Part shown: one piece after another, positions 4,052-48,125 of the stretch
Layout of the letters: every line of letters starts with the position of its first letter
Numbering within the stretch: position 1 is the stretch's first letter
Assembly: GCA_963169875.1 (NCBI GenBank)
Contig: CAUJEL010000075.1
Span: 17,899-81,898, forward strand
Source: Candidatus Zhuqueibacterota bacterium
GTDB lineage: Bacteria; Zhuqueibacterota; Zhuqueibacteria; Residuimicrobiales; Residuimicrobiaceae
Length of the DNA: 64,000 nucleotides
Direction: 5' to 3'
The notes under the pieces: model-generated
What the model was told of the DNA's origin: nothing
The model's database searches: none
Seen by the model: only the letters and a program-made list of their open reading frames with translations
Made by a program: the position numbers and the translations under genes

Positions 4052-6811
4052 TCACGTTCCCGATAATTTTTTCAGCTTGTCATGATATCCGAGCTTTTTG
4101 ATTTTCCTCTGCCAGTCCCGGTCGATGCGGTAATCGTCGTCATTGAAGTGATAGGCATAGCCTCTTCCCGATTTCTCTCCTTGTTTAAAAAAGTTTTTTC
4201 CTCTCCGGGTGCCCGCCATTTTGGGGATTCTGTTGGCCCACATATAATCCCTGTAGTCGCCGCCGGAGTGATGTCTGAGGTAGCTTTTTATCTGGGTGGT
4301 AGTAATACCGGGCACTGCGACGATCAATTCCACCAGCACCCTGTCAACGTCATCTTTGAATTTATCTTCGGATAGTTTTATCCGGGAAGATCCCGTATCA
4401 TGCGAGCTGGAACTCCTGGTGAAGCGTGCTATGACTTCCAGTATGGATTTATCACTGGTGATCTTTTTGCGCACAATTTCTTCCATGAGCAGTTTGAGTT
4501 CCTTGATGTTTTGCGGCCAGGTGTAGCTGCTCGTTTCCAGTTCCTCATAGACACGCTCGCTCATCTCCGGCAGATCTTTCAGCACATCGTCCTGATCACT
4601 CATGCGCCATCCCTGAATCAGGATGCGGATGTCTTCACGGCGCTCGCGAAGAGGCGGGATGACCACTTTATAAAACCGTTCGAGAATATCAAAGCGCGAG
4701 TCTTTTTGATTTTGCATGGCGCGCGGACTGGCGAATTTGCTGATCAGGATGATACTGCGCAACCGGGTTTGTGTGGCTTTATCACCGACCAGTTTGTTCA
4801 TGAGAAGGAGTTGCTTGCTGCTTTCGATATCCTCAAAATCATCGATGATAAGTGTGCTGGTCGCGGCCTCTTCCAGTGTGCTCGCGAGCCAGGCATCGCT
4901 GTTTTTGTTGAAATCTTCCGCCGACTTCCATACCGGGGCGCTGTTGGCAAGACCAAAAGAGTGAAGATGTTGATGAATACTGCGGGCCAGGACGCCGGTG
5001 CCAACGCCTTCCTCCCCATAAAGAATCAGCCGCGTTTTGCGTTGACTGATGCGCTTTTTGATATCGAGAATCATCTCGTGCATGAGTTGAGATTTGTAAA
5101 ACAGCTCGTAAAAGGTCTGTTTTTGTTCCCAATAGGGTGCAAAGATATGTTCGGTGAAAAACTTTTCTCCGGAGGACGCCGTTCTATCCGGGTTGGTATG
5201 TAACCAGGTGACGCCGGGCACCAGCACGTTCTCCATCCTGGTTTCATGTTTAAACATATCACGATAGGTCTTTAATTTTGCGGTATCAGCGATCAGCGCT
5301 GGAGCCGCGGCGGTCCCCTGCGCGTCTTTTTCACGCAACCGGGTGACCGTCTCTATGCCCCAGGCCCTGAGCACGATCATGGTGCTGTGTGTGTCGGCCA
5401 GTTTCAGATCTTTCAAGTCCGTGATGAAATCGATGGCGCCCTGCCAGCCCAACTGATTTTTGGTGTGTCTTGAATCTTCCTGGGGCATGACCGCCAGCGT
5501 TTTGACATTGAGGATGATCACATCGATCGGCCGCTGCAAATCAGCCTCTTTTTGCAGGGTTTCATAATACGTTTTCAGGTTTTCACGATACTGCGTGTCG
5601 TTGAGGTAGAGAATGGAGCAATGGTGCTGTGGAGAGGTTTGTACCATGAAAAACAGCGCGGGGATGGTGGAGTTTGCATCCTGGCCGACGCGGTGAAAGG
5701 AAGGCGCCAGAATGACTTCAATTTTGGTTTCCGGCGGCTGGGGCGCTTCCGGCCCACTGTCTTGAGCGTTCAAGGGCAGATTGATTCTGGTGAGCTTGTA
5801 CTCCTTGCTGACATCAATATCGATTTCATGCAAAAAACGGCTGCCGCCAATGTTGATGAAAATGTCGTAGAGCGAAAAGATACCCGGCGCAAAGATGTTC
5901 TGCAGCACAAATTTGCGGATGATTTGATAATTCTGCAGAGCCACTCCATCCGCTTTTGCCTCCGGCAAATCCGGGAAGGGGAATGCAGTGTATTCTTTCC
6001 ACGCCAATTGTTTGATAAAGGAAGAGGTTCTGGAGTTTATTTCCTTTTCCAGATTTTTAGTGATACTTTTAAGAATATTTTGTATTGACTCATAACCCTT
6101 TTTATTTATTTGCTCCAGAAATTTTAGCAGTGTTTCCGTGATGTTTGCACGGGCATAATTCACGCCGAACAATACGCTGGGGTGTGCATAGATGTGCATA
6201 CGGTTGTTGATCTCGGTGCGTTTCCCCGTTTTGGCGTCAATGCTCTGCTTGACAGCGCTCAAAATAAGAGGTTTGGCGTCCCGGACCGCGTCGAAATGGT
6301 TATGGGTGATGAAGAGGTGATCGATTTTATTTGAGCTGATATCGAGTTTGTTCAGATATTTGAAGGTGCTTCTGCCGGGATCGATGACGATGCGGACGCC
6401 GCAGGCTTGGAGCAGAATGCCGCCGAATCCGGGCAGTCTGCCGATATAATCCGTGCGCGCCGCCCACTCTCCGGCGCATCCGCCGCAAAAGAGGAGTGAA
6501 ACCTGTTCCGTCGGCAGCTCTGACGGGTCCGTCTCGCCCTCCGGTGCAATCAGCTTTTGTTCGTCGAGGCTGGCAGCAATTTCGGCGGCTTCGTGTATGT
6601 ACTTTTCGAAATCAGCCTTAATCTTTGAATGTTTTTTCTCTTCAGCCTCGGATTCTTCCACATGTTTCAGGGCGATCGTCACCTCTTCGAGCTGCCGCTG
6701 CAATTCAAGCTGCATATCCAGTAATACGGCCTTGTCAGCCGTTTCAGCTTCTGCGTTCGCAATCGGATTGACGACTGGTTTCTTTCCTGGTGGGGTGTTT
6801 GTGGGTGACAT
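4052..6811 (-). CDS. Metallo-beta-lactamase-fold domain fused to NtrC-like AAA+ domain (no GAFTGA loop)
   Basis: THNHFDA (HxHxD), GEEGVGTG Walker A-like, LIIDDFED Walker B-like, VVIPPLRERREDI bEBP signature; N-terminal coiled coil. Confidence 0.75.
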   Translation of the reverse strand: MSPTNTPPGKKPVVNPIANAEAETADKAVLLDMQLELQRQLEEVTIALKHVEESEAEEKKHSKIKADFEKYIHEAAEIAASLDEQKLIAPEGETDPSELPTEQVSLLFCGGCAGEWAARTDYIGRLPGFGGILLQACGVRIVIDPGRSTFKYLNKLDISSNKIDHLFITHNHFDAVRDAKPLILSAVKQSIDAKTGKRTEINNRMHIYAHPSVLFGVNYARANITETLLKFLEQINKKGYESIQNILKSITKNLEKEINSRTSSFIKQLAWKEYTAFPFPDLPEAKADGVALQNYQIIRKFVLQNIFAPGIFSLYDIFINIGGSRFLHEIDIDVSKEYKLTRINLPLNAQDSGPEAPQPPETKIEVILAPSFHRVGQDANSTIPALFFMVQTSPQHHCSILYLNDTQYRENLKTYYETLQKEADLQRPIDVIILNVKTLAVMPQEDSRHTKNQLGWQGAIDFITDLKDLKLADTHSTMIVLRAWGIETVTRLREKDAQGTAAAPALIADTAKLKTYRDMFKHETRMENVLVPGVTWLHTNPDRTASSGEKFFTEHIFAPYWEQKQTFYELFYKSQLMHEMILDIKKRISQRKTRLILYGEEGVGTGVLARSIHQHLHSFGLANSAPVWKSAEDFNKNSDAWLASTLEEAATSTLIIDDFEDIESSKQLLLMNKLVGDKATQTRLRSIILISKFASPRAMQNQKDSRFDILERFYKVVIPPLRERREDIRILIQGWRMSDQDDVLKDLPEMSERVYEELETSSYTWPQNIKELKLLMEEIVRKKITSDKSILEVIARFTRSSSSHDTGSSRIKLSEDKFKDDVDRVLVELIVAVPGITTTQIKSYLRHHSGGDYRDYMWANRIPKMAGTRRGKNFFKQGEKSGRGYAYHFNDDDYRIDRDWQRKIKKLGYHDKLKKLSGT

Positions 6812-7143
6812 GGCTGCTCCCTTATTTTAACAGCAAAATGATCACAAGAGAAAAGGGGCGGTATTTCACAAATGAAATCAACACTTTGGAAAAATATATA
6901 AATTAATTCAAATTAAATCAATAAAAATGTGAAAAAAAACAGTGTGAAATACTCGCACGCCAGTTGCTTTTTTCATTTGGATCGCGTAACATAATGCAGC
7001 TGAACACCGGGCGGGTAACTGTGGAAGTTTGCACCTTCTCTGCCATTGTAACCTGGCTGCTTGTCTGAAGTTTCTGGCAAACCGGCAAGGGATGGTCAAG
7101 ACTGGCAATTCACCGAAAAATCCCGGTGTTAGCAGGATGTGAT

Positions 7144-8289
7144 ATGCAGAATGAATTACATCGCCGACTCGTGCTGGCTGGATTTTCGCAAGCCATTCAG
7201 GTTCCCGGGACGGATTTCATCCGCATGGATGACCAGGAGCATTATCTCGGTCAGTCGCGCAATGATGCTCTGGTGCTCATCAAGAAGCTGCCGTTTCAAG
7301 TCTCCGCCCAGGTGTTTGCCCAGCTCTCAGCCATTCCATTGGCTGAAGCTTCTCTTCCGTACTCTTTTGTCATGTTTCAAGGTTTGCAGCAGAATACCGT
7401 TTTTTGCGGCGTGCGCGCGGAAATCAATGAACCTGATTTCTGGCGCGCCCCGCGAAAAATGCTGGACGTATTTGAAACTGAGATTGTCGCTCTGGCGGAA
7501 GAACGCATCGCCAAAAATTCTTTATCCATGAGTCATCCAACGCTGCGGGACGTGGTGTGCGCCTGCGCTTCGACGCCATTCGTACCCGGCCGCAATGCCG
7601 TGCAATTGCGCGCTCTGCTTTTCGCGGAATTGAACGCCCGCCGCCGGCCGTCCACTTCGCTCATCATCGGCCGCCGTGGCTGTGGCAAGCGTACCACGGT
7701 TTTGCGGGTTTTGCAGGAGCTGGGCTATTCCGCCTATCAGCTCGATCGCGAGGGCGGCAAGTCCGGGCAGGAGGTGCTCTCTATCCTGCAGGAAGCGTTT
7801 CCGGCCCTCTCCTCGCAGCCTGGCGCTGTTTTTATGATCGGGCCAGCGATCACCGATATGCTGCTGGGACCTCATCATTTTTTGTGGGAAAGTCTCTATT
7901 CATTTTTGCTGGATGAGCCACATCTTCCCGTCTTGATGCTGTGCAGCAGCGACGCGTACAGCGCCGCGTGGCGCGGCAGCCTGCGATACCAGTTCGTCGC
8001 GGAATCGACTCCGGTTCTGGTGAAAATGGTGCATTCCCATTATCCCGGATTCAGCGGGCCGCTTCTTCCTGATGAAACCACCCCCTTGGCCAACCCCGAG
8101 TGCACGTTGCGCAAAGCGGCCAGCGCGCACCACGATCTCCTGCCAATGAAGCCGGCGGCTTGCAAGGCCAGCGCACTCCTGTTTAGCCGTGTGCTATATG
8201 GAGAAGGGGATGAAGAACACCAAAATGGTCTGTCAAATGCGTCCTGCTCCTGTCAGGGCCAATCATGTTGGATCAGAAACCAGAGGTAA
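7144..8289 (+). CDS. P-loop ATPase of unknown function, first gene of MoxR/vWA operon
   Basis: GRRGCGKRTT Walker A; start ATG 7144 within ORF 7126-8289; divergent from MBL-AAA gene. Confidence 0.65.
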   Translation: MQNELHRRLVLAGFSQAIQVPGTDFIRMDDQEHYLGQSRNDALVLIKKLPFQVSAQVFAQLSAIPLAEASLPYSFVMFQGLQQNTVFCGVRAEINEPDFWRAPRKMLDVFETEIVALAEERIAKNSLSMSHPTLRDVVCACASTPFVPGRNAVQLRALLFAELNARRRPSTSLIIGRRGCGKRTTVLRVLQELGYSAYQLDREGGKSGQEVLSILQEAFPALSSQPGAVFMIGPAITDMLLGPHHFLWESLYSFLLDEPHLPVLMLCSSDAYSAAWRGSLRYQFVAESTPVLVKMVHSHYPGFSGPLLPDETTPLANPECTLRKAASAHHDLLPMKPAACKASALLFSRVLYGEGDEEHQNGLSNASCSCQGQSCWIRNQR

Positions 8290-8291
8290 CT

Positions 8292-9269
8292 ATGCTGAAA
8301 ACCAATGCACTGCTCTTTGAAACCCAGCAAACCGCTCCGGTGCCGGAAGAGGATGAAATCATCGAGGTCAACGGCTTCATCGGTCCGCGGTCGGTCATTG
8401 AAAAAACCATTCGTTATCTTTTGGATCAGCATGTGCAGATTGTGGGTGAGCCGGGCATGGGCAAGACTTTTTTCGCCGAGAACATCTTGCCGCCTCTCCT
8501 CAATGAAGCCATGCAGACCACCTATTCGGTGCATTACATCTTGCTGAGCAATTACAAGGATGAGCGCAATCTTTTGGAGCACATAGAGGTGACCATTGAG
8601 GGCAACACCCAATTTGCCGCTTCCAATGTGGTCAAAGCCTGGGAGAAGGCCACGGCCGTGGATCAGCCGGTGCTGGTGATCTTTGACGAAGCAAACCGGG
8701 TGGATGGCAAGCGTCAGACCATTTTGACTCCTCTGCTGGAGAGAAAGCCGCGCGTGGTCCTGGCGCTGCAGAACAAACTGCTGCAATTGCATCCGCTCTC
8801 CCGCATGGTCCTGCTGAGTAATCCGACGGGTGGCGGCACTTTCAAGTTGAATGAAAACCTGGCCGACCGGCTCAAAGTCATTGATTGGCCGCCGCCTCCG
8901 GCCCGGGTCATGGCGCGCATGCTGATGGCAGATGACTCGCGGCGAAGCGGCCGGAAGGTCATCCGCACCAGGGAGTGGACGTTTTACGACAACCTCTTGA
9001 GCGAAGATGAGGTCCTGGCGCTGTGCCAGGCGATCAAGCGCCTGGATGTATACAGAAAATCGCCCGTCTCGATCCGTGAGATGCAGGGTTATTACTTTGA
9101 ATTAAAACGCAACCGGCTGACTGATGCCTTGAAACAGATCAGGCATGATATCCGCGCAAAAGTCGATGTCTCCAATCCTGCCGCCGCCCGGGAGATCAAT
9201 GCCACGTTCAGCCGGCTGATGGAAACGATAAAGGATAACATGGCATGTATGATGCAAACTCAATTGTAA
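8292..9269 (+). CDS. MoxR-like AAA+ ATPase
   Basis: GEPGMGKTFFAENILP Walker A; VLVIFDEANR Walker B; LLSNPTGGG sensor region. Confidence 0.8.
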   Translation: MLKTNALLFETQQTAPVPEEDEIIEVNGFIGPRSVIEKTIRYLLDQHVQIVGEPGMGKTFFAENILPPLLNEAMQTTYSVHYILLSNYKDERNLLEHIEVTIEGNTQFAASNVVKAWEKATAVDQPVLVIFDEANRVDGKRQTILTPLLERKPRVVLALQNKLLQLHPLSRMVLLSNPTGGGTFKLNENLADRLKVIDWPPPPARVMARMLMADDSRRSGRKVIRTREWTFYDNLLSEDEVLALCQAIKRLDVYRKSPVSIREMQGYYFELKRNRLTDALKQIRHDIRAKVDVSNPAAAREINATFSRLMETIKDNMACMMQTQL

Positions 9270-11020
9270 TGCAGGATCTCCTCAAGGGGATGAACAAGAT
9301 ATTAACGAGTGGTTCTGTGAACGGATTCATGGAGAATTTCAACCGCTTCAATGTGGATTATACGCTGGCCATCGACTGCTTCCGGCAATCGGCGGATGCA
9401 CAGCTTCTGCTGTCGCCGCGCGTGCGCGATGCGCCGTTCTATTTTCCGGTCTGCTACCTGAAACGGACAGATCTTTCCGACCCTTTACGCATCCAGGCCA
9501 TGATTTGCCAAACCCTGATCGATTTATGCACGGCAAGCCTGGATGAAAAAATGCCCTGTGATATGGAACCGCTGAAGGCGCTCAACATTCTGACCGGCGC
9601 GGAGAGAACGCCCTATGATTTGAGTTCCATTTATCAGGTGAGTCAAAGGGGGTTGCGAACCGGATTGCTGCTGAACAATCTCCAGGTTGTCCACGGATTT
9701 CAGCAGCTGCTGGCATCCTGGCAAACCGCTTTATACCTGGAGCTGGAACATCACTTTGTTTTCAATCCAGAGACCCACAAAGAGCTGGACCTGATTTCCG
9801 ACATCCACGAGTTTCTGGAAATTGTATTTTATCTGCGCGAGCGCGCCTTCTTTTTCTATTATACAGAACTCTGCTGCGCGCCCATCAATCTGCAGTTCAG
9901 TCAAAAAGTGCTTCATTTCCTGAATTCTTTGTGCCTCCGCAAACTGGATATCACCCGTGCCGCCTGCCTGGCGGAAACATCCGCTCTGGTGCGCGATGCG
10001 GCGCGGCGAATCACCCGGTTTTTCGATGACCCTCTGATCTTGCGGATTTCCGACAAGCCGCCGGCATTTGATGTGATGTCCATGGCCCGCAGAATGAATG
10101 TGAGAATTTCCTTGCGCCGCGACTTGCAGATATTGGATCAAGGCTATATTGTCCAGCGCATGATTGCCGGCGAAATGCGGCCAATTGAATATCAACCCCC
10201 GCTCCATTTTGACCAGGACTATTCGTTGCGAATAAATGGACTTGGGGATGCTGTGCAGGGACTCTTGCAGCGGCTGATACAAATCCGCATGGAAACGATC
10301 CAGGAGAGCGATTACGAGCCCTTGCAGCAATCGGGCGAACCGGATCCCGAAGAACTGTACAAACGGCGCCTCGATACGAAATTTTTTGTGGAGAGCCACG
10401 AGCAAGTGGAACTGTCGACCTGTCTGTACCCCATGTTTTTGATCGACAACAGCTGTTCCATCCATGCGCAAAAGCGCGAAAAGATGGCGGATTTGCTCAT
10501 GACCTTTTTTCTGGCCATCAAGGAGTGCCCGGAGCTGTTTTCCCATGCCACAGCCATGGCGCAGCATTCCACCGGCTCCGGGAGAATAACCCTGCGGCTG
10601 CTGGTGGATAAATTGGCAGAGGAGTTGCAGGAATCGGACCTGACCACGCTGCTGCATCTGACATCCATGGGGGTGAATTATGACATTTTTGCAGCCTATG
10701 AGCTGGTCAGCCATTGTGCCGGCAAAAATGGCTTCGCCGCGACGATCCCTTTGCTCATCATGGCCGGAGATGCCTGGCCCGTCGGGCACCGCAAAAACGT
10801 CAAGGAGGAGCAAAAAGAGGTGATGGCACTGCTCAAGTCGCAATACCCCCGCATGATTATCTGCTATCTGGCCACTGATGCGCTTTTTCCCCCGGCTGAT
10901 TTGAGTTATGATTACTGGATCAGCCTGGCCCATGATGAACCGATGCAAGGAGTCATGGTTAAAATCGGCGATATGATTGAAAACATTATCCGGAGCAGGG
11001 TAAATGATTATGCTGACTGA
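9245..11020 (+). CDS. vWA (MIDAS) domain protein, MoxR partner
   Basis: FLIDNSCSI = DxSxS MIDAS motif near residue 400; overlaps the end of moxR and the start of the next gene. Confidence 0.7.
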   Translation: MYDANSIVMQDLLKGMNKILTSGSVNGFMENFNRFNVDYTLAIDCFRQSADAQLLLSPRVRDAPFYFPVCYLKRTDLSDPLRIQAMICQTLIDLCTASLDEKMPCDMEPLKALNILTGAERTPYDLSSIYQVSQRGLRTGLLLNNLQVVHGFQQLLASWQTALYLELEHHFVFNPETHKELDLISDIHEFLEIVFYLRERAFFFYYTELCCAPINLQFSQKVLHFLNSLCLRKLDITRAACLAETSALVRDAARRITRFFDDPLILRISDKPPAFDVMSMARRMNVRISLRRDLQILDQGYIVQRMIAGEMRPIEYQPPLHFDQDYSLRINGLGDAVQGLLQRLIQIRMETIQESDYEPLQQSGEPDPEELYKRRLDTKFFVESHEQVELSTCLYPMFLIDNSCSIHAQKREKMADLLMTFFLAIKECPELFSHATAMAQHSTGSGRITLRLLVDKLAEELQESDLTTLLHLTSMGVNYDIFAAYELVSHCAGKNGFAATIPLLIMAGDAWPVGHRKNVKEEQKEVMALLKSQYPRMIICYLATDALFPPADLSYDYWISLAHDEPMQGVMVKIGDMIENIIRSRVNDYAD

Positions 11021-11939
11021 TGTGCAGCGAAAAATAGAATCGTTTTATGCGTTTGTGGCCAAGGGGCGGGATCGCGATCCAGGGCTGGTTTTTCAGGACC
11101 GGCTATCTGCGGAGGATCCGCTCTCCTCAATTTTTCAGCCGGCTCTGGCAGAGCGACTGGCGCAAATAGGCTACGGCTTTGTTCCTTTTTATCTGCACCG
11201 CTATAAACGGGATGAATATCACCTGAGATTCGTGATCGCACGGACCGTCAAAAGCATCCTGCTGCCTGAGGCGGATTATCGCGTGGTCCATTTTATTGAA
11301 AAACCCAGGGAGATCACCGGACACGCAGTATTCACCATACCCTGCGAGAATCAATTTTTCTCCTCGCATTTTCCGGCTCCGGTTGTCTTTCTCGACGACG
11401 CGCTTTTGCCCGCCGCCCTGCGCGAGAGTGAGACCGCTTTATTGTCGCTGATCACGCATCGCGCCGGATTCCGTCAGACGCTCAACAGGCATCTGGAAGC
11501 ATTGACCTGTTTTAATTGTATCGACCGGTTGCTTGACAGCCGGCTGCTGTGCGGTTACAGCTGGTATCTGCTTGATCAGTATGAACGCCGTGCAAGACAG
11601 CCTCAAGAGGGATTGGAGTTTCTCAAAAGGGGGAAGGATCGCGCGGGTTTACCCGCTTTCATGGCCGTACAGAGTGATCAAAAGCAGGGGACGGTTTCAT
11701 TTGATATGATACATAAAAAAGCGCAGACCATACTGAACAAGATGCGTGTGAAACTGCATCCAGAGTCAGCAGAGACTGGCCTCGACGATTTCATCCTCGT
11801 CGGGTACAAGGAATTGCTGGGAAATTTTCTCGAGTATGATTCCCATTTTTCTCTTTTTTCGCAACATCTGGTGCGAAAAATTGTCCAGGAAAACAGCGCC
11901 CGCGTCAACGATCTTAAACGTCTGCTGCACCAGCCCTGA
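11004..11939 (+). CDS. Hypothetical protein, last gene of MoxR/vWA operon
   Basis: 311-aa ORF overlapping the 3' end of the vWA gene by 17 bp; no family recognised. Confidence 0.7.
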   Translation: MIMLTDVQRKIESFYAFVAKGRDRDPGLVFQDRLSAEDPLSSIFQPALAERLAQIGYGFVPFYLHRYKRDEYHLRFVIARTVKSILLPEADYRVVHFIEKPREITGHAVFTIPCENQFFSSHFPAPVVFLDDALLPAALRESETALLSLITHRAGFRQTLNRHLEALTCFNCIDRLLDSRLLCGYSWYLLDQYERRARQPQEGLEFLKRGKDRAGLPAFMAVQSDQKQGTVSFDMIHKKAQTILNKMRVKLHPESAETGLDDFILVGYKELLGNFLEYDSHFSLFSQHLVRKIVQENSARVNDLKRLLHQP

Positions 11940-12038
11940 GTCATGAATTGATCGGGGTATTCCTGATGGACCTGGATTTTGTAAACGATTCAGGGCTGAT
12001 GGCAGCGTGCAAAATCTTTACCGCGGCAGGGGTGCATT

Positions 12039-12677
12039 TCATTCTTCCTGCAGCGCCGCGATGAACTTGTCAGCTTCGGCGATGGCGCTCTCCATATCAT
12101 GGACCAGATTGTCAACATTGGTCTGTACGCTGATCAACTCGTCGCTCAAACCGGCGATGGCTTTGGCGTTGAGATTGTGCTTCATGAACAGCACCTGATC
12201 CCGCAGCGGAATCAAGGCCGGCTCCAGCTTGGATTCCGCTTTTTTCATGGCGCGGATCAATTCTGCATATTTGGTTCTGGCGATGTCATATTTTTTTTGA
12301 CTGGCCTGTTTCAACCTGGCGCTGTTATACTGTTCGATTTCCGCGCGCCATTCGTCAAATAATGCATCGCTGACCTCTTCCACGGATTTAATGCGTTTGC
12401 GCACCGCTTCGGCCTCGGATTCGCTCTTTTGCAGCGTGGCGTTGAGGGTGTTGTATTTTTTTTCCAGATCGCCGCCCTGGACGTTGACGACGCTCTTGAA
12501 CTGCTCCATGGCGCTGAGAAACTGCGTTTTTGCTTCGTTCTGGGTGTCGCGCGCCGCCTTGACGCGATCCACCATGATATCACGCTTGTGGACCCCCAGT
12601 TTTTCCATGCCCGCGAAATAGATCGAGCTGCAGGCACAAAAGACGACCAGGATAATGGCTGCAATCAGTTTTTTCAT
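12039..12677 (-). CDS. DUF2959-like coiled-coil lipoprotein
   Basis: Lipobox FCAC; GVHKRDIMVDRVKAARDTQNEAKTQFLSAMEQF resembles DUF2959. Confidence 0.75.
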   Translation of the reverse strand: MKKLIAAIILVVFCACSSIYFAGMEKLGVHKRDIMVDRVKAARDTQNEAKTQFLSAMEQFKSVVNVQGGDLEKKYNTLNATLQKSESEAEAVRKRIKSVEEVSDALFDEWRAEIEQYNSARLKQASQKKYDIARTKYAELIRAMKKAESKLEPALIPLRDQVLFMKHNLNAKAIAGLSDELISVQTNVDNLVHDMESAIAEADKFIAALQEE

Positions 12678-12942
12678 CTTGTACTACCCTCCGTGATGAT
12701 CCGGATGTTTTCTCCAATGGCACACTGTCGATTCTGATGCATAAAAATGATAATTCCCGGGCAAATCTGCAATAGTTATTTTCAGTTAAACGGGTTGCGC
12801 CGGATTACCAATGGATCAAATCAGACCATCGGCCTGTTACTGTCGATCGCCCTGACGGCGTCTGTTCTCAGCAGCAGTACCTGTTTCATCACGGTCGAAT
12901 TTCCCCCATTGCATGGCAGCCGAAATATTACTATAATTAATC

Positions 12943-13947
12943 ATGCAAAAATCTTTCACGGAAATGATTTCCGATGCGCCCCGGACACCCGGCGTCTACC
13001 TCCTGAAGAATGAGGCTGGCGATGTGATCTATGCGGGAAAATCGGTCAACCTCCACAATCGGCTGCTGCAGCACGCGGCCTCCCTGAAAGCCGGCTGGCA
13101 GGACCGCAATCACCGCTGGATCTACCATGCGGCAAGCGTCGAATGGATCGAGACCGCCTCGGAATTATACGCGTTGCTATTGGAAGACCAGCTCATCAAA
13201 CAGTACTGGCCCCTGGCCAACACGCGGCAGAAGGATTTTCTCGAATACGCCTGGCTCGCCTTTTCCAGGGAGGCGATCCCCCGGATGCTGGTAATCGATG
13301 CCCGGGAACGCGACCTTTATGAGGATGTATTTGGCCCCTTTCGCAACAGTTTCTATGCCCAGGATATGGCTGATCTCGTGCAGATGCGCTTTCGTTTGCG
13401 AACCTGTGCGGTTGTCAGCGCCGGAGGCTGTGTGCAAATGGAAATCCGCCAATGCACGGGGCCCTGCCGTCATCCCGCAGCCGCCGCGCGCTACCGGCGC
13501 GCCATGGATCGGGCTGCCGCATCACTGCGTTCATTCGATCCCTTTTTTGTCCGTTATATTCAAAACGTGATGCAAGCACAGGTGCAAAAGCAGGCGTTCG
13601 AACAGGCTGCTCATTATCACGGCATGCTGCAGCGTTACCAGGGTTTTATCAAACGGCAGAAATTCCTGCGCTGGTTTCGCCAGCAGGGCGTTTTGATTCG
13701 CGAAAAGGGACGCTGGCCTAATACGTTTCTGTTTTTGCAGGGCAGACTGATCGCGAGAAATGGCGCGGCTGCAGCGGATGCAGCATACCCCCTGAGCGAA
13801 TGGCAGATCATCGACCGCGCCAATGTGATATATCAGTGGCTGCGCAATCGGCGCAGCGATGGTGAGATGGCTATTATGGATAGACGTTTTTTTTCTGAGG
13901 ACACCGATGAAAACGACTTGGTTTTGCATGAAGCTGGGGATGGTTAA
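12943..13947 (+). CDS. UvrC/Cho-like GIY-YIG endonuclease with Cys4 motif
   Basis: TPGVYLLKNEAGDVIYAGKSVNLHNRL GIY-YIG domain; C-x7-C-x7-C-x3-C incl. QCTGPC as in UvrC; lacks the UvrC C-terminal half. Confidence 0.85.
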   Translation: MQKSFTEMISDAPRTPGVYLLKNEAGDVIYAGKSVNLHNRLLQHAASLKAGWQDRNHRWIYHAASVEWIETASELYALLLEDQLIKQYWPLANTRQKDFLEYAWLAFSREAIPRMLVIDARERDLYEDVFGPFRNSFYAQDMADLVQMRFRLRTCAVVSAGGCVQMEIRQCTGPCRHPAAAARYRRAMDRAAASLRSFDPFFVRYIQNVMQAQVQKQAFEQAAHYHGMLQRYQGFIKRQKFLRWFRQQGVLIREKGRWPNTFLFLQGRLIARNGAAAADAAYPLSEWQIIDRANVIYQWLRNRRSDGEMAIMDRRFFSEDTDENDLVLHEAGDG

Positions 13948-14009
13948 GTCACCACCGAGACGCTGAGACGCAGGGCAAAACAAGTCAATTTCGTCATGAT
14001 ACTTGTCAT

Positions 14010-15056
14010 CTATCCCATTTCACCACTGCGCTCGTCGCCGCCCCGGCGCCAGTTGTAAACCCAATTGATGTTCATGGTGGCGGGCGCCACCGTGCGCAAC
14101 CAGCGATCGTTCAGTTCGGAAATCCAGGCGCCAGTTTCATCCGCTTTGAGATGAACCCGGACAACCGCATTTTGGTCCTGCTGTGAAATATGCTCAATCA
14201 GTTGTTCACGGATCTGTGCGGTGGTCAATCCCTGCCCCGAGACGACCAGATCCACCATGGGGCGCGCCGGCAAGGGGTAAAAAATGTGGCGTACTGGTTC
14301 GCCCGCCCTGATCGTCAAAATCAGGTAGCCTTTCTCTTCCTCCCGTTCCGCAAACGAGGTCCTTTCGGTCGAGCCGGGGTAAAACACCGCCGCGTTCAAG
14401 GGCCGTCCGGCCAGATCCTGCCTCAGCACCTGGTGGCGGTGAATGTGGCCGCTGAGCACGGCAGCGAATCCAGCCGGGATGTCGGCGCCGCGTATCACCT
14501 CTGCACCGCTGCGAAAAGTATAGTTCTGCACACCCACCTGTGCCCCCTCCACGGTCTGATGCATGCACAGCAGCCGGATATCCGCGGGGTGCGATTTCCA
14601 GGCGGTTTTTTCCAGCTCTGCATTAAACCGGGTTCCGGGATCATGGCGCACGTTGGGAAAACCAGCCAGAGCGATGCGGCAGCCGTTCAGGTTGACGAGA
14701 TGGGTACAGGGTTGCTCAAAAATGAGGATCTTCGCATGGTTGTGCAGCAACGAGCGGGGGATGTTGGAGCGTTCATGGTTGCCAGGCACGATAAAGACGG
14801 AAATGCCCTGGTCGGCGATTTGCAGCAGCGGTTCAAAAGCGGCTTCGACGATGGCAGGGTGGACGCGGCTGCGGAAGAACATATCCCCGCCGTGCACCAC
14901 CATATCAACCTGGCGGTCAAAGGCTGGCTGCAGGGCCTTGCGATAGTTGGCATCAAAGTCGTCGCCGCGGCGGCGGCGCTGCACTTTGGGCCGCAGCGGT
15001 GCGTCAAAGCCGAGATGGGTATCGGCGAGAAACAGTATTCGGATTGAATGCTGCAT
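14010..15056 (-). CDS. SbcD/Mre11-like metallophosphoesterase (DNA repair exonuclease family)
   Basis: FLADTHLGFD, VHGGDMFFRS, VPGNHERS, LSGHIHRHQ motifs. Confidence 0.85.
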   Translation of the reverse strand: MQHSIRILFLADTHLGFDAPLRPKVQRRRRGDDFDANYRKALQPAFDRQVDMVVHGGDMFFRSRVHPAIVEAAFEPLLQIADQGISVFIVPGNHERSNIPRSLLHNHAKILIFEQPCTHLVNLNGCRIALAGFPNVRHDPGTRFNAELEKTAWKSHPADIRLLCMHQTVEGAQVGVQNYTFRSGAEVIRGADIPAGFAAVLSGHIHRHQVLRQDLAGRPLNAAVFYPGSTERTSFAEREEEKGYLILTIRAGEPVRHIFYPLPARPMVDLVVSGQGLTTAQIREQLIEHISQQDQNAVVRVHLKADETGAWISELNDRWLRTVAPATMNINWVYNWRRGGDERSGEMG

Positions 15057-15260
15057 GCATTTTCACCAAATTAGAGAGGCCGGTTCGAGATCAGCTTTTT
15101 GATTGAATTGCCTGGGGAATCTACAATCGCGTCCTGTTTTTGTTATCCTGGCCTGCCACACGTCGAATAGCTTTCCGGCAGTTCTTTTGATGACCCGCAA
15201 ACGTGCAGGATAAAAATAATCCGATTCGAACCAGCCTTTTTCTTTGTAATACGCAAACCC

Positions 15261-15306
15261 TATAAACCGGAACCAAATGCCGGACCTCAAAGGTACGGCA
15301 TTTTTT
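15261..15306. repeat. Palindromic repeat, family B (ATAAACCGGAACCAAA-GCCGGACC...)
   Basis: Aligns with 62176-62222 and the reverse complement of 61579-61627. Confidence 0.6.
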
Positions 15307-15321
15307 GAACATTTTGCGCAA

Positions 15322-15420
15322 AAGAAGGTGTTCAAGCTACCCTGGTCCTATGCAGCCAAAGTGGCACGGCCAAGGTGTCTGGCTTGTGGGTACCAAGAAG
15401 GCTTTCAAGCTACCCTGGTT
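15322..15420. repeat. Pair of about 25-bp direct repeats (AAGAAGGYKTTCAAGCTACCCTGGTY)
   Basis: Copies at 15322-15347 and 15395-15420. Confidence 0.75.
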
Positions 15421-15469
15421 CGATTGTTCATATCAAGTTGCAGTTAAACTGGATGCCAGGCACTGTTCC

Positions 15470-17938
15470 TTATTTAGCCAATATCAACTTCCTGCTCAAT
15501 ACCGAGTTGTCTTTTTCCAGTCTGCATATATAGACGCCGCTCGGAAACTCAGCCGCATCCCAGCGCTGCGAGTGAAGGCCGGCCGGCATGCGTGCCGAAA
15601 GGAGTGTGATGACCTCGCGGCCGAGAAAATCAAAAATCTTGAGCGTGACAACTCCCGGTTTTTCCAGTGCAAAATCAATGGTGGTTACGGCATTGAAAGG
15701 ATTGGGATAATTCTGCAGCAACTGCATCTTTTCCGGCAGCTTGTCACTTTCGCCCGGGCTTTCCACTGCGCTGACCGCGGCGGAAAAGGTGGCGGTCACC
15801 GGTGTGGAGCGGCCCACCAGCAGACTGACGGCCGAATCGCTGGAAGTCACCGCGCCGCTCCAGCCATCGAATTGGTAGCCAGGTTCCGCAATGGCTTCGA
15901 GCTGGACGGCATTGCCGGTGAAATAGATGCCATTCCACGGCATCTCAGCCGGCTTGAGGGTGAGGGAGTTCAGACGCACCACGCCGCCGGGTGTGGATTG
16001 AAGCGTGATTTTGCCGAGCGAACCGCACTTGAAAAAGTTACTGATAAAGGTGCGCAGATTGGCCGGACGCTCCTTGGCGAAGGTGATCATGCGGTTAAGG
16101 TGGCTTGCGGCCGTCTGTTCGCTGATGTTCCATCGCTGGCGGTGGCGGCTGATCTCGGGCGAGATATGCCCGGCCATCTCATTGATGAGGTTCACCACGC
16201 GCGTGCTGGCGAAATGAGTATTGAGCAGGTCCGCGGAGAGGTTGATGAACTGATTTTTGATTCTCGGATTTTCCACCAGTTTGCGCGGCACCAGGGTGGA
16301 CCAGGGCGGATTGGATCCGGGCCGCGTCTCCTTGCCGGAAAAGATATAGTAAATATGATCTTCGGATTGTCCCGTGGTTTCGTAGAGATTAAAACCGAAA
16401 TCGACGTCGAAGAGAATCCAGCGCCATTTGCCGGTCGCGCTGCGCTCGCGCCAGTACTTGACATTGTTGGCGGGCCAGTCCTGACTGTTGTAATAGGCCT
16501 CGGCCGCCCAGTAGAGCAGGCACTCATCGAGATCGATCATGCTGTTCACATAATCATACGCGGCATCCGTGGTCATGTCCTGCGTCGAGAGATAATCGAT
16601 CAGCGCCTGGTAGTGTTGGGTGTCACCGTGGATGATATCCATGTTGCCTTCGAGCATGTCGATGTTATCGGGATCCACGCCATGGTGGTGGGCCACATAG
16701 TGTTCGTTGATTTTCTCGCGGATGTTATAAATGCCCCAATATTCGCCGTTGATGAATGCGGCCGCGGGACGGTATTCGAGATAATCGATATCCAGATCCT
16801 GGATCAGGGTCTGCATCATGGCATCGCGGATATGGGTGTAGTAAAAATCATTGCCCGAATTTCTCAGTACGAAGGCCTTGTAAGTGCTCAGATCAAGGTC
16901 CGGGAACAGGGGGTAGTGGAGGCCGTCGATGCCATAGTCGTTCTTGAATTTCACCGAGATGGATTTTTGCGGATAGGAGCGGGTGTAAGCGCCATAGATG
17001 GCGATGCCGCAATTCTCGGAAAAGCCGAGGTTTTTGGCGTCGTCAAAAAACTCGACATGCGCCGGACGTTCCCAGTCCATCCAGAAATTGGCGCCATGGT
17101 TGGGTGCCGCCGGCGTCCAGCCCGGTCCGTCCGCGTAGATGCCATAATTGTAGTCGAAGAGGTTGTAGGGATCGCTCGACAGGGAGACCACCGGCAGATG
17201 GGTGTTTTCATTGATGAGAAAAGTATGATGGACCGTGGGAGATGGCTGGTGATCCGGCTTGACGCTGACGGCTTTGAGGACCGCGGTTTTGTCGATGGTG
17301 ATGGGCGCCGTATAGCGCGCTGATGTGGAATCCGGATCGCCGCCATCAAGGGTGTAGAAAATGGTGCTTCCGCCGGCGGTCAGGGTCACAGTGATCGCCG
17401 CCGGATAAAATCCAGCCGGTGAAGAGACCGCTACGGGATCTGAGAAGGGTTTGATGATGGTGCCGGTGTTAGCCGCGCCCGGTGATGGCGTCTGAAACAG
17501 CCACGGCCCTGCGCCGTCGCTTTTGCGGCCCCAGGCGATATCCGCGGCTGAAGCCGGGACATCGACGCGATCGACGACCGCTCCGGACGCATCCGTGAGA
17601 ACGATGGATTCGCCCGATGCGCTGATTTTGAAATTGGTGTGCCAGTACGTCGCTTTTTTGTTCTTGTCCGAAGCGAAAACAAGGAGGTACTGGCCCGGCA
17701 TCAGAGTAGCGGCACTTGAAAAGCGCCATTTACGCACGGCCGGATCGTCGCTGAGGCCATATCCCTGGAGTTCCACAGGTGTGGAGCCGCCATTATAGAG
17801 CTCGATATAATCCGAGGCGTTGCCATCCTCGTCGTCGATGGTTTTCTGGTTGGAAGCCATGATCTCGTTGATCACGACGCCTTGTGACAAAACAAGACCT
17901 GGCAGCAGGCATAGCATGAGCAGCATACATCGGTACAT
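15470..17938 (-). CDS. Secreted CotH-like / lamin-tail-domain protein with C-terminal sorting domain
   Basis: VVINEIMASNQKTIDDEDGNASDYIELYN lamin-tail; chitobiase-like region; CotH-like core; C-terminal LLQNYPNPFNAVTTIDF...SGVYICRLE. Confidence 0.88.
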   Translation of the reverse strand: MYRCMLLMLCLLPGLVLSQGVVINEIMASNQKTIDDEDGNASDYIELYNGGSTPVELQGYGLSDDPAVRKWRFSSAATLMPGQYLLVFASDKNKKATYWHTNFKISASGESIVLTDASGAVVDRVDVPASAADIAWGRKSDGAGPWLFQTPSPGAANTGTIIKPFSDPVAVSSPAGFYPAAITVTLTAGGSTIFYTLDGGDPDSTSARYTAPITIDKTAVLKAVSVKPDHQPSPTVHHTFLINENTHLPVVSLSSDPYNLFDYNYGIYADGPGWTPAAPNHGANFWMDWERPAHVEFFDDAKNLGFSENCGIAIYGAYTRSYPQKSISVKFKNDYGIDGLHYPLFPDLDLSTYKAFVLRNSGNDFYYTHIRDAMMQTLIQDLDIDYLEYRPAAAFINGEYWGIYNIREKINEHYVAHHHGVDPDNIDMLEGNMDIIHGDTQHYQALIDYLSTQDMTTDAAYDYVNSMIDLDECLLYWAAEAYYNSQDWPANNVKYWRERSATGKWRWILFDVDFGFNLYETTGQSEDHIYYIFSGKETRPGSNPPWSTLVPRKLVENPRIKNQFINLSADLLNTHFASTRVVNLINEMAGHISPEISRHRQRWNISEQTAASHLNRMITFAKERPANLRTFISNFFKCGSLGKITLQSTPGGVVRLNSLTLKPAEMPWNGIYFTGNAVQLEAIAEPGYQFDGWSGAVTSSDSAVSLLVGRSTPVTATFSAAVSAVESPGESDKLPEKMQLLQNYPNPFNAVTTIDFALEKPGVVTLKIFDFLGREVITLLSARMPAGLHSQRWDAAEFPSGVYICRLEKDNSVLSRKLILAK

Positions 17939-27662: not shown

Positions 27663-29963
27663 TCAGCGAACCGGGCTTGCTGTTTCGAGGCGAATTTGCT
27701 GCCAGACAGCACCGTCCCAGGACTCTACAGACGCTATTTTTTCCCGATCAGCAGGGCTGAAACTTTTGCCAAAGATATCACGAAAGCGGCTCAGAAAGTA
27801 GTCGGGCAGATTTTCCAGGGCAACCGGTTCCATTTGCGTCGAAAAAACATAAAAATAAATGATATACGTATCCATCCCGCCTGCAACTTCTTTCAAAATG
27901 CCATGATTGGCAATGTCAACACGAACGTGATTCCCCCACAATTCAATCCTGGACACTACATCGCGATAAACCCCTTTTTCCCAAAAAGGCGATTTGGGAA
28001 ACCGGAAGAGCCGGAGATGATTCGCCGGTGGTATGCCCGCGAGTGTGTAAGCGGGCAGGCTTTGCGGAGACGCGCCCTGCATATCGTCAGGAGCGAAAAC
28101 AGCCAGCCGCGCCTGCCCCTCTTCATTGCCGTACATACCGGCGGCGATTTCGAGCCGCCCATCGCCATCATAATCGCTGGTGTTGTAGAATACGATATGA
28201 CCTGAATTCCAATAGGAACCGCGCACGATGCCTTTGTGGTCGATCAGCGCAAGCCGGGAAGCAAACGTCTTGAGCGAACCAACGGTGCAGAGGATCATTT
28301 TGGGATGGCCGGGTATGATCGGGGCCGTGATGATTGGGCCCGACAGGTAGCGATCTTCAATCTCTTCCCCGGAAAGGGTTCTGAGGGGCATGCCCAGTTT
28401 GACCGGCGGCCACAGTGGATCGCCTTTATCGTCAAATCCATACAACGTTCCGCTTTGCTCCAGAGCGTTTAATTCTGAGATCCCGATCAGCGTCTCCATT
28501 CTGCCATCCTGATCGAGGTCGTCAATCAGAATATTTCCATGGTCAGGTGCGGCGTAGGCTTCAGGGCTGATCGGGAAATCAAAGCGGTGGCTCCAGATCT
28601 TTTCTCCAGCCTTGTTTTGCACTACCAGACTATGTTCGATGATTTGCCATCGGGCTGGTGTCCGGTCAGACCACCACTGCAGCGCGGGCGTGAGCATGAC
28701 AAGCAGCGCCAGCCCGGCAGCAGAGGCCAGAATCGCGAACAACCATTTGTGACGCGACCGTTGCAGCGCTGCGACTGCGCGCGCGAATAAGGAAGGCTGC
28801 TTTCCCTGCACCAGGTTGCGATCCTGCAGCGCTTCGCCAAAGCTCCTCAATGGCTGGAGGGAGAGGTGGCGATCGGGATAACGCTCCTCAAGTTTGGCCA
28901 GCTCCGCAGTCGCCAGGGCCAGGTTGGCTGCGGGCAGGAAGAGACGTTCGACAGGCGAGAAGAAAGCAGCGCTGATTTTGGCGCCGAGGGTCAGACTGTC
29001 CACAGCGGTAATCGTGCCATCCGCGCGAATGCCGCCGGTGATCGCCGCCGTAGCGGCCAGAGAGACCAGCGCGGAGCGGTAATGGCGATTTCGAGTGGTT
29101 ACCCAGGCCAGCAAGGCTGCTGCCAATCCCATTGAAGATCCGCTCACTTCGGCCGATTTTTCCGCAAGCGAAAAATGAACCGTATAGAACGAGCGGGCGG
29201 TTCCCGGCGCCATATGCGCCCTGGCGGCAAGAAGGCCATCCGTCATGGTCCAGTACAGCGAATAATGTCCCGGCGTGGTTTGATTGTTGATCAAACAAAA
29301 ATCAGCATCCGCGTCGTCCGGCCGTTCACGTGCTTCGGCGTGCAGAGAAAGAACAATTCCCTGCGGGTTCCGGCTGATGGTGGGGATGGTATTGCTGTCG
29401 ACAAGCACGACGCTGGCACAGTTGTCCGGAAACGAAGCGGTGCGCGCTTCCCACTCCCGGATCACAGGGTCCAATGCCACTTGCAGAGGTTGCGGTGCCT
29501 TCCGGATCAGATACCGGGCGGCATCCAGCCGGGCAGCAGGTAGCGCCGTACCGGCATCGTCAGTGATGCCCATGAGGCCGGAGGCGCGGTGGAAATCAGC
29601 TGCGTAAAAAGAACTGAGGATGGCGGCGAGGCGTATGTCATGCTCTGCAGGAACGATAGCAGATAAATGCTCGGGGGCTTGATCCTTGAAAACCTGTATC
29701 ACGTCCAGCCAGGCGCATAACTCCTCGGGGTCGCGACAGGATCCGATCAACTCCTGGGACATGAGTGGCAGGAAGGGCGCGAACTGCAGATAATAGGAAC
29801 AGACGGCCGGTTGCTCGGCGATTTGCGTCAGATTTTGGCAAAATTGAAAGAATCGGCTTCGTTTGCTTTCGAGGGAGGCCTCACTGTGAAGATAATCGGC
29901 GAGTTGGATGGCCTCGCCTTCCAACTCCATGAGCGCGTGCGCGCACACATTCGTGGTCCTCAA
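27663..29963 (-). CDS. Lon-like (S16) protease domain - TM helix - beta-propeller/FG-GAP-like repeats
   Basis: VSGSSMGLAAALLAWV (Ser region) and AAITGGIRADGTITAVDSLTLGAKISAAF (Lys region) resemble S16; TM WLFAILASAAGLALLVML; IDDLDQDGRMETLIG and TSDYDGDGRLEIAAG repeats. Confidence 0.7.
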   Translation of the reverse strand: MRTTNVCAHALMELEGEAIQLADYLHSEASLESKRSRFFQFCQNLTQIAEQPAVCSYYLQFAPFLPLMSQELIGSCRDPEELCAWLDVIQVFKDQAPEHLSAIVPAEHDIRLAAILSSFYAADFHRASGLMGITDDAGTALPAARLDAARYLIRKAPQPLQVALDPVIREWEARTASFPDNCASVVLVDSNTIPTISRNPQGIVLSLHAEARERPDDADADFCLINNQTTPGHYSLYWTMTDGLLAARAHMAPGTARSFYTVHFSLAEKSAEVSGSSMGLAAALLAWVTTRNRHYRSALVSLAATAAITGGIRADGTITAVDSLTLGAKISAAFFSPVERLFLPAANLALATAELAKLEERYPDRHLSLQPLRSFGEALQDRNLVQGKQPSLFARAVAALQRSRHKWLFAILASAAGLALLVMLTPALQWWSDRTPARWQIIEHSLVVQNKAGEKIWSHRFDFPISPEAYAAPDHGNILIDDLDQDGRMETLIGISELNALEQSGTLYGFDDKGDPLWPPVKLGMPLRTLSGEEIEDRYLSGPIITAPIIPGHPKMILCTVGSLKTFASRLALIDHKGIVRGSYWNSGHIVFYNTSDYDGDGRLEIAAGMYGNEEGQARLAVFAPDDMQGASPQSLPAYTLAGIPPANHLRLFRFPKSPFWEKGVYRDVVSRIELWGNHVRVDIANHGILKEVAGGMDTYIIYFYVFSTQMEPVALENLPDYFLSRFRDIFGKSFSPADREKIASVESWDGAVWQQIRLETASPVR

Positions 29964-30784
29964 TAGATACAGATCCTGAGCATTTCTTCATCCACGGCGA
30001 TCTCCAGCAAAGTCAGACCATCGCGGGTTGTGGAGGAAATGATTCGCCTGTCCGTGATGCCAACCACTTCCCAATCGGTTGATGCAGATGCGGGATCTGC
30101 TTTCGCCACAGTGACCAGGTAACGCACCCCGGTTTCACTGCGATCAATCGTCACCTCGATTCTTCCTTGCGTATGCTCCGCCAGCGCAAACCTGTCGATT
30201 CTGGATTTTTGCGGCGACCGCGAGGGCGCCAGAGAGAAATCGTACACTCCCCGCGGATTGATGATTTCGAGTGCCTTGAAACGGGATTCCGGCTGGGTGC
30301 CAAAGTCGACGCATCCTTTATTGTCGACGATGCCGGTCAGGCCTCCTTCGGTGAGTACCACTTTGCACCCGTGTGGAACCTCCCCCGATTGAGCGATGAG
30401 AAACAGCCTGAGATGGTGACTCTGGCGATTGAATAGCAGCCGGCCGACGATCCCCATATCCGGATTGGAAAAGCTGGAGACCGCATATAGTTCGGCTGGC
30501 TGTTCCCCGCGGGCAGCCAGCCGATGCGAAACAATGTTCTCCACCCCCGAGGGACGAACCGGCGCCAACAGGAGTGGAGCATCCGTCCGCTCTGTTAGAG
30601 TGACATCATTCGTCAGGCGTGGAGAATCTGACTGAGGGTGAAGCATGGCCCTGTGCAACGTCGCCAACACCAGATAGCGTTCACGACAGCGGTCGCAGTC
30701 GAAGAGGTGCTTGCGCTTTTCTTCGCCCAGCCCGGTGTTCCCCCAGACGAGTTGCTCCAGTTGTTGTTCGCTGAAACATTTCAT
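29960..30784 (-). CDS. Zinc-finger anti-sigma-like protein
   Basis: KHLFDCDRCRERYL (H-x3-C-x2-C) at N-terminus; ATGA-type overlap with the following Lon-like gene. Confidence 0.55.
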   Translation of the reverse strand: MKCFSEQQLEQLVWGNTGLGEEKRKHLFDCDRCRERYLVLATLHRAMLHPQSDSPRLTNDVTLTERTDAPLLLAPVRPSGVENIVSHRLAARGEQPAELYAVSSFSNPDMGIVGRLLFNRQSHHLRLFLIAQSGEVPHGCKVVLTEGGLTGIVDNKGCVDFGTQPESRFKALEIINPRGVYDFSLAPSRSPQKSRIDRFALAEHTQGRIEVTIDRSETGVRYLVTVAKADPASASTDWEVVGITDRRIISSTTRDGLTLLEIAVDEEMLRICIY

Positions 30785-30840
30785 GCTTTACCTTGCAGAC
30801 TTTCTCATGCCATACAGTATAAGTCGCATCGATCCTGGTT

Positions 30841-32049
30841 TCAGAAATTTTTGGCTGTTTTATTTTTCATTTCCTGACGAAAAATACGCACGAGGTAATC
30901 AAAAATGGAAAAAATCTTGTCCGGATTGGCCATGGACAGGCCGGGCGGCCAATGGGCCGCAACAAGTTCCTTGCTGCTGAAATTTCCGGGATCCTCGAAA
31001 AGTGACTGGCTCCAGGCTGAAAGGGCTGAAAAGAGAGCGAGCGCTTCCTCGAGGGACAGTTTCTCTGCATCGACGTATTTTTTCAGGATGATATCCCGGA
31101 TATGGAGCAGTGTTTGATGGATCAGATGCTCATAGGCTGGCCACTCTGGCGTGGATTCCTGCACCTCGAATGCCACCCTGTCTTCGGCGTTCTGGCGGTG
31201 GACGCGAATAACAGCGACGATATCAGAAAGTGGCATGCATACGGGACGCCCTGACTGCCGTGTCAAGAGGACGACGAGTTGTTCAATCGACTGGTCAAGT
31301 GGCAGGTGCTGAAGCAGGATGGGCGTCAGGGCCTTTCTGATGAGTTCTGCGCCCACCCGGCTGCAGGAAGCTGACCCGGCGTCGCGCTGGATCAAATAAT
31401 AGCCATCCACCTCCCTGATCACTTTCAGACGTTGATTTTTCCGGACTGCACGCAGTGTTGTCCGCCATAATTTGGCGCCTTCCGGGTCGCGTTGGCGAAA
31501 AATACGGGAAATCTGGTGTTGTGTTTCACCGATGAGAAGCCGCATCAGTGCACCGTAGATGACCTCGGGCGTTTGCCGGGCCTGAAAGAGAGGCAGAAAA
31601 TAACTCTGCAGTCGTGGATATCGGCCCGTCGAATCCCGTTGAAATAATTCGGCGAGGCAGTCGGAGGCGAGCAGCTCGAACTCGATCATGCGTTTTGTTT
31701 CACGAACATGCCGGCCGCGATGCTCCATAATTTGCAAATACTGCGATGACAGGCTGAGGCAGGCGCGCAGCAGGCACTCTTCCTCCCCGGCGGACGAGGT
31801 CCCTTCACAAAGGTGCACAAGTTGATGAATCAACCGCTCCATTCTGCTCTGTTCCAGATCCATCGTCATCCGATCGTGAAAATATGATGCGATCCCCGCA
31901 TCATGAACAAACCGTGAGGCCATCGTCCGTGAACAAACGGCATCATCAGGCCACTGTGCGTCATTGACTGAAAATAGAGGCTTACCGGGGGGGACACAGG
32001 CCCGGGAAAACACCTTGTGTGGTCTCAATCCCGGCTGCCTCCTCGTCAT
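30841..32049 (-). CDS. Unknown protein, possibly sigma-like/regulatory; first gene of Lon-like operon
   Basis: Open frame in the same operon; helical LASDCLAELFQRDSTGRYPRLQSYF segment; true start may be internal. Confidence 0.55.
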   Translation of the reverse strand: MTRRQPGLRPHKVFSRACVPPGKPLFSVNDAQWPDDAVCSRTMASRFVHDAGIASYFHDRMTMDLEQSRMERLIHQLVHLCEGTSSAGEEECLLRACLSLSSQYLQIMEHRGRHVRETKRMIEFELLASDCLAELFQRDSTGRYPRLQSYFLPLFQARQTPEVIYGALMRLLIGETQHQISRIFRQRDPEGAKLWRTTLRAVRKNQRLKVIREVDGYYLIQRDAGSASCSRVGAELIRKALTPILLQHLPLDQSIEQLVVLLTRQSGRPVCMPLSDIVAVIRVHRQNAEDRVAFEVQESTPEWPAYEHLIHQTLLHIRDIILKKYVDAEKLSLEEALALFSALSAWSQSLFEDPGNFSSKELVAAHWPPGLSMANPDKIFSIFDYLVRIFRQEMKNKTAKNF

Positions 32050-44509: not shown

Positions 44510-44512
44510 GTG

Positions 44513-47026: not shown

Positions 47027-47143
47027 CCATTGCCACCCAAAAGATTGGAAACAGACAACTTTATCTGCCCTGATTGAGCAGGTTTTTCAAATAGGGCATT
47101 TGTCACTGGCTGATTCTACTGTACTCAATCCGGCGATTAATAA

Positions 47144-47272
47144 TCACAATAACCTGGAGATCAGACGCGAGGAAACCAGCGCACGGGAAATAATCAAATC
47201 CTGCTCGATTTGTTCATTGCTGTTCCAGGGCGCCCGGGCGCGCCAGGCGGTGATATCTGCGCGCGGGATCAC
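47144..47272 (-). pseudogene. Truncated AbiEii-family nucleotidyltransferase toxin (N-terminal 42 codons)
   Basis: GTG start overlapping AbiEi stop (GTGA): VIPRADITAWRARAPWNSNEQIEQDLIISRALVSSRLISRLL*, resembling the AbiEii N-terminus. Confidence 0.7.
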
Positions 47273-48078: not shown

Positions 48079-48104
48079 GCCCCTATTGTGTTTTCGTTTT
48101 CTTA

Positions 48105-48125
48105 AAATACCACTTTGTGGTATTT
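48105..48125. promoter_or_regulatory. Putative AbiEi operator
   Basis: aaataccac ttt gtggtattt perfect 9-bp inverted repeat, 27 bp upstream of abiEi start. Confidence 0.55.

Follow-up and report, generated by a model that had tools for sequence, protein, structure and literature searches.

The DNA considered here, a window of 64,000 nucleotides from a genome of Candidatus Zhuqueibacterota, a poorly known phylum (5.0 Mb in 215 contigs), carries a divergent cluster of five genes around a MoxR-clade AAA+ ATPase, a rare accessory block whose features are collected in Table 1. An earlier note on this DNA, made from the sequence alone, had described such a cluster with overlap among its last genes, and both observations hold: all five open reading frames (ORFs) are real and stand at the positions given there, with overlaps of 25 nt between the MoxR and 591-aa genes and 17 nt between the 591-aa and 311-aa genes. 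The operon runs from a P-loop protein through MoxR and a 591-aa protein with a presumed vWA domain to a 311-aa protein; the gene for a 919-aa protein, in which a metallo-beta-lactamase (MBL) domain precedes an NtrC-type AAA+ domain, points the other way. At the overlapping junctions, a purine-rich Shine-Dalgarno-like stretch lies 5' of both the 591-aa and the 311-aa gene. The first gene probably starts at ATG 7144 (381 aa, with AGGA before it), GTG 7126 being the less likely choice. For MoxR, a start at 8292, directly past the stop of the P-loop gene, is possible.

Table 1. Features of the five-gene cluster (positions are those of the window)
Feature	Position	Strand	Basis
919-aa MBL/pseudo-NtrC AAA+ protein	4052-6811	-	ORF; Pfam/NCBIfam; hhalign to MBL profile; AAA+ alignment
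C-terminal 105 aa of the 919-aa protein, candidate helical (winged) helix-turn-helix (HTH)	4055-4369	-	helices only, in single-sequence AlphaFold2
NtrC-type AAA+ domain, aa 564-780	4472-5122	-	MAFFT alignment; Pfam
MBL domain, about aa 128-490, with an insertion of about 180 aa	5342-6430	-	hhalign, alignment, motifs
Divergent intergenic region, 314 bp, left half AT-rich	6812-7125		sequence
Perfect 10-bp inverted repeat, GTATTTCACA (6861-6870) / TGTGAAATAC (6943-6952)	6861-6952		sequence scan
Weak sigma-54-like -24/-12 site TCGCACGCCAGTTGCT, one mismatch, in the -24 GG	6953-6968	+	motif match
P-loop protein (GRRGCGKRTT), 387 aa, first operon gene	7126-8289	+	ORF; motif
MoxR-clade AAA+ ATPase	8265-9269	+	AAA_5, E 1.9e-12; motifs
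591-aa protein, presumed C-terminal vWA	9245-11020	+	motif, gene order
311-aa protein, no family, overlaps the 591-aa gene	11004-11939	+	ORF; profile searches

The earlier note had read the 919-aa protein as an MBL domain fused to an NtrC-like AAA+ domain that bears the LRERREDI signature and lacks GAFTGA, and Pfam, hhalign and alignment all agree with this. In Pfam, Sigma54_activ_2 and AAA_lid_14 pass the cut-off, which MBL families narrowly miss, and in hhalign an MBL profile built from 34 proteins of related genomes matches with a probability of 96.8% (E 2.3e-10, score 76, the best of 40 shuffles reaching 26). On sequence comparison, the protein does not have the complete HxHxDH...H...D...H metal set of active metallo-beta-lactamase hydrolases. 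Its motif (aa 170-175) reads HNHFDA in place of HxHxDH, so that H170, H172 and D174 are kept and the histidine of the DH pair is lost (A175); a Novosphingobium enzyme with an otherwise identical THNHFDH retains that histidine in the alignment. In the low-confidence extension of the alignment beyond about aa 215, H373 and D405 stand at motifs 3 and 4, and IVLRAWG occupies the position of the last metal-binding histidine of active enzymes, with the histidine missing. The domain thus appears to be short of at least one metal ligand, and probably two, which would leave at most one metal site.

The AAA+ domain was aligned (MAFFT) with NtrC-family proteins from related genomes that carry GAFTGA, and with an RtcR-like protein encoded elsewhere in the window. 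It has the core and lid of a sigma-54 enhancer-binding protein (EBP) and retains PPLRERRED and WPQN, but the GAFTGA loop is deleted, the Walker A motif reads GEEGVGTG with T605 in place of the lysine, the Walker B motif is DD rather than DE (IIDDF) with loss of the glutamate, and the sensor ATN is replaced by SKF. With neither the lysine of Walker A nor the glutamate of Walker B, the protein would operate without ATP-driven control by its own AAA+ domain. Both catalytic cores look degenerate, and judged by these residues the 919-aa protein is a pseudo-enhancer-binding protein, and a part as scaffold, or as a regulator that responds to a ligand, suits it better than one as an enzyme.

There is precedent for regulators of this kind. 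NtrC-family proteins without GAFTGA act at sigma-70 promoters, some of them without ATP hydrolysis (PMC10274813), and it is on this account that we read the 919-aa protein as a regulator and not as an effector. It shares the deletion of GAFTGA in loop L1 with the EBPs of this group (Rhodobacter, Caulobacter NtrC, VspR; PMC10274813); unlike them, it has an N-terminal MBL domain, no Walker A lysine and no recognizable Fis-type HTH. Its best PADLOC match (E 1.2e-8) is to the RtcR/PspF-type CARF-AAA+-HTH proteins (PDLC01995), which likewise fuse a sensor to an NtrC-type AAA+ domain; the match covers the AAA+ domain only, however, and the 919-aa protein has MBL instead of CARF as its sensor and has lost the catalytic residues. 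Between the divergent genes, the perfect 10-bp inverted repeat is a possible operator; a repeat as long occurs in 4% of locally shuffled versions of the intergenic region. A sigma-54 promoter upstream of the operon was considered and rejected, the candidate being a single near-match in a window that holds no more such matches than shuffled sequence.

Turning to the operon, the GRRGCGKRTT P-loop reported for the 387-aa protein is indeed present, with no obvious Walker B acid on reading of the sequence; Pfam gives no family above cut-off, only weak ORC/RFC-like P-loop matches. The MoxR AAA+ assignment is likewise sound, the AAA_5 match (E 1.9e-12) being full-length and the motifs intact (Walker A GEPGMGKT, Walker B VIFDEAN, sensor LLSNP, arginine-finger region ADRLK). 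Its AAA_5-type core, these motifs and a helix-2 insert that aligns with haloarchaeal MoxR place it in the MoxR clade. Of the vWA domain with a DNSCS metal-ion-dependent adhesion site (MIDAS) that the earlier note had given the 591-aa protein, the motif stands and the fold is unconfirmed: there is no Pfam match, and the hhalign score of the full protein falls within the shuffled range. The protein has a single DxSxS, at D401, preceded by a hydrophobic stretch, such a motif appearing in 1.1% of shuffles; a MIDAS threonine is not evident, and the N-terminal part of about 385 aa has no family. In profile comparisons against 24 vWA domains with 100 shuffles, the full protein scored 22.7, a value matched by 3 of the 100. 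The C-terminal fragment beat every shuffle, but the N-terminal fragment did so too, which makes the fragment test non-discriminating. A single-sequence AlphaFold2 model reached a pLDDT of 36.5. For the 311-aa protein no profile match was found (Pfam and PHROGs among those searched), as had been anticipated, and hydropathy analysis finds no transmembrane segment in any operon protein, the 311-aa protein included. For three of the five proteins of the cluster, no family in Pfam, NCBIfam, PADLOC or PHROGs passes the cut-off, and the PADLOC 2.0 anti-phage models yield only generic, partial AAA+ matches and no near-full-length component match.

None of the five genes has a specific relative in the phylum's 81 other genomes searched: the MoxR, presumed vWA, 311-aa and P-loop proteins occur in this genome alone of the 82, the MBL part of the 919-aa protein has matches in four others, all to short MBL proteins of a generic kind, and its AAA+ part has matches everywhere, to ordinary members of the NtrC family. 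The five genes therefore stand together in 1 of 82 phylum genomes, a single known copy from which conserved co-occurrence cannot be claimed. Searches of viral contigs and plasmids with all five proteins, and of phages with two, returned distant haloarchaeal MoxR only. A scan of all species genomes, limited to six short peptides from the 919-aa protein, would not pick up distant relatives; its one match, an MBL hydrolase of Novosphingobium encoded beside an MFS transporter and a TonB receptor, is unrelated. The neighboring cyclophilin gene, by contrast, was found in each of the five family members searched, and in a same-genus genome this flank recurs with other neighbors on the opposite side. 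It is because the five genes are confined to one genome while the adjacent cyclophilin gene is widespread with differing neighbors that we regard the block as accessory; since the far flank differs in the same-genus genome, insertion boundaries are not definable. The unit was probably acquired horizontally, of which the slightly lower GC content of its genes (0.50-0.56 versus 0.52-0.60 in flanking genes) is weak evidence. We found no MBL-NtrC-MoxR-vWA set in the literature, and no catalogued defense system or protein family matched the full five-gene set, in line with the earlier note, which did not recognize the set as a described system.

The closest frame of reference is provided by the MoxR-vWA ternary conflict systems, in which a third component lies 5' of MoxR and is followed by vWA (PMC7159879), and in which the iSTAND2 and TERNS3 forms add a separate effector-bearing gene next to the vWA gene (PMC7159879, PMC8195603). 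With the vWA presumed, our cluster has the same order of third component, MoxR and vWA (with effector) as the VMAP, iSTAND, FtsH, beta-propeller, iSTAND2 and TERNS3 systems (PMC7159879, PMC8195603); the 387-aa gene occupies the third-component position, and, as in iSTAND2 and TERNS3, a separate gene lies 3' of the presumed vWA gene. Unlike those systems, it has no detected VMAP-C, iSTAND, FtsH, beta-propeller, effector-associated domain (EAD) or effector domain, and it does have a divergent MBL/pseudo-NtrC gene, an MBL component being absent from the main texts on ternary systems (PMC7159879, PMC8195603). Pfam detects no VMAP-C, iSTAND, FtsH pair or beta-propeller/TPR in the 387-aa protein, which is possibly a very divergent iSTAND. 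The resemblance is thus at most one of analogy, and we do not file the cluster as a member because no described third component, effector or EAD was detected and its vWA is unconfirmed.

Among 72,556 plasmids, the closest relatives of the MoxR protein are four haloarchaeal MoxR genes (E 7e-5, 23-26% identity). In the two records opened (Halorubrum p117 and Halomicrobium mukohataei; L024, positions 8863-16176, and L025, positions 8854-16146), a vWA gene comes next and then a HEAT-repeat or large hypothetical gene; one of the triads has two protein kinase genes immediately upstream. These triads look like ternary-type systems that have not been labeled as such. MoxR alone is similar between them and our cluster; their vWA and third genes are dissimilar, and no MBL or NtrC protein is annotated in them. 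RavA-ViaA, CoxD-CoxE and NorQ-NorD likewise combine a MoxR-clade AAA+ protein with an adaptor, with a presumed C-terminal vWA as here, but the 591-aa protein matches no vWA family and the cluster keeps other gene company.

Elsewhere in the window, PADLOC identifies a run of BREX genes on the minus strand (42452-60770), with BrxL at 42452-44509, PglZ at 44513-47026, PglX, BrxC at 55815-59414 and BrxA at 59973-60770; AbiEi (47269-48078) and a PD-Lambda-2 B homologue (48193-49380) lie within it. PglX is divided between two minus-strand ORFs (49815-55812) that cover positions 1-659 and 661-1311 of a 1332-position profile, and an OLD/GajA-like gene (52067-53767) sits exactly between them, the result either of an insertion that broke PglX or of a split enzyme that possibly still functions. 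Beside the BREX cluster (39976-41514, minus strand) is the RtcR/PspF-type CARF-AAA+ protein used in our alignment, with GAFTGA intact (PADLOC E 1.8e-83), possibly a CARF-sensing regulator of the BREX locus. Three adjacent minus-strand ORFs at 27663-32049 encode proteins of 766, 274 and 402 aa; by eye, the 766-aa product has a possible Lon-protease-like central part and the 274-aa product an anti-sigma-like N-terminal cysteine motif.

How might the cluster work? On the best reading, it is a new variant of MoxR-vWA-centered operons with an unprecedented MBL/pseudo-NtrC partner. More specifically, we tentatively propose, at somewhat less than even likelihood, an accessory five-gene unit in which MoxR and the 591-aa protein form a remodeling machine and the 919-aa protein is a non-enzymatic regulator or scaffold. 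MoxR would assemble as an ATP-hydrolyzing ring and, with the 591-aa protein as its presumed vWA adaptor, would capture and remodel a client complex in the manner of the ternary systems, the client being the P-loop protein of the first gene together with the coupled 311-aa protein. In the 919-aa protein, the degenerate, at most single-metal MBL domain would do the sensing and the NtrC-like domain, incompetent for ATP, would serve oligomerization and transmission; the protein could control the operon, in a sigma-70-type or repressor mode, or scaffold the complex. The intact MoxR motifs and the alignment with haloarchaeal MoxR genes that precede vWA and HEAT-repeat genes, the MoxR-vWA-like gene order, the overlapping genes, the residues lost from the 919-aa protein, the divergent orientation of its gene across the inverted repeat and the confinement of the five genes to one genome all count toward this proposal; we infer complex formation, the role of the vWA, regulation by the 919-aa protein and, as the biological purpose, conflict over housekeeping assembly. 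Several results weigh on the other side. The vWA fold is unconfirmed by Pfam (including a search with the isolated domain), PDB, hhalign and AlphaFold2, and the HTH of the 919-aa protein is unverified by Pfam, single-sequence AlphaFold2 (pLDDT 55.5) and Foldseek on the C-terminal 105 aa. No effector domain is recognizable in any cluster protein, nor was an effector or EAD detected in the 591-aa or 311-aa protein. A second copy of the set was not found, for which reason the linkage of the five genes could be incidental, and the nearby defense region starts some 28 kb from the cluster, with housekeeping-type genes between.

Gene order, the rarity of the cluster and that same defense region make a conflict role plausible. 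Its fullest form would be a MoxR-vWA conflict system of a new class: on sensing an infection signal, a nucleotide or a nucleic acid, the doubly inactive MBL/NtrC-AAA+ protein would release or induce a complex driven by MoxR, with the 311-aa protein as a new effector. We consider this form unlikely. The earlier note had gone further, with the MBL-AAA protein itself as the ATP-controlled hydrolase or nuclease effector of an anti-phage or other conflict system. The MBL fold is well supported, one metal site (H170, H172, H373, D405) may remain, and BREX and other defense genes share the same 64 kb, but with HxHxDH changed to HNHFDA, the last metal-binding histidine lost and both Walker residues gone the two cores look degenerate, which makes an active nuclease or hydrolase effector unlikely, and the PADLOC match extends no further than a generic RtcR-type AAA+ domain; we consider this version highly improbable.

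A serious rival, if a doubtful one, is that MoxR and vWA are a dedicated assembly chaperone for the maturation of a metalloenzyme or some other complex, like RavA-ViaA, CoxD-CoxE, NorQ-NorD and GvpN, and that the MBL/pseudo-NtrC protein regulates it in response to a metabolite. MoxR has weak matches to GvpN and to a phage porphyrin-biosynthesis (CobS-like) protein, and the long N-terminal region ahead of the presumed C-terminal vWA is similar to the layout of ViaA and NorD. According to the part of the survey that treats them, the majority of characterized MoxR-vWA pairs are assembly factors (PMC7159879). Against this, no metalloenzyme, gas-vesicle or respiratory genes were recognized among the ORFs read beside the cluster, and absence from all other phylum genomes tested is unlike a housekeeping factor. 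Chance could also have placed a four-gene MoxR operon beside an unrelated divergent regulator gene, both accessory: the data searched hold only one example, divergent genes need have no functional link, and a recognizable partner arrangement exists elsewhere for MoxR only. Yet all five genes have the same restricted distribution and fill one block, and a divergent regulator gene commonly signals linkage; we judge such coincidence quite unlikely.

Should the set recur elsewhere, it would add a new type of partner for MoxR-vWA machines and would present an MBL domain turned from enzyme to sensor on an ATP-dead NtrC scaffold. Given the three proteins without a family above cut-off, a survey of homologues would by itself define new families.

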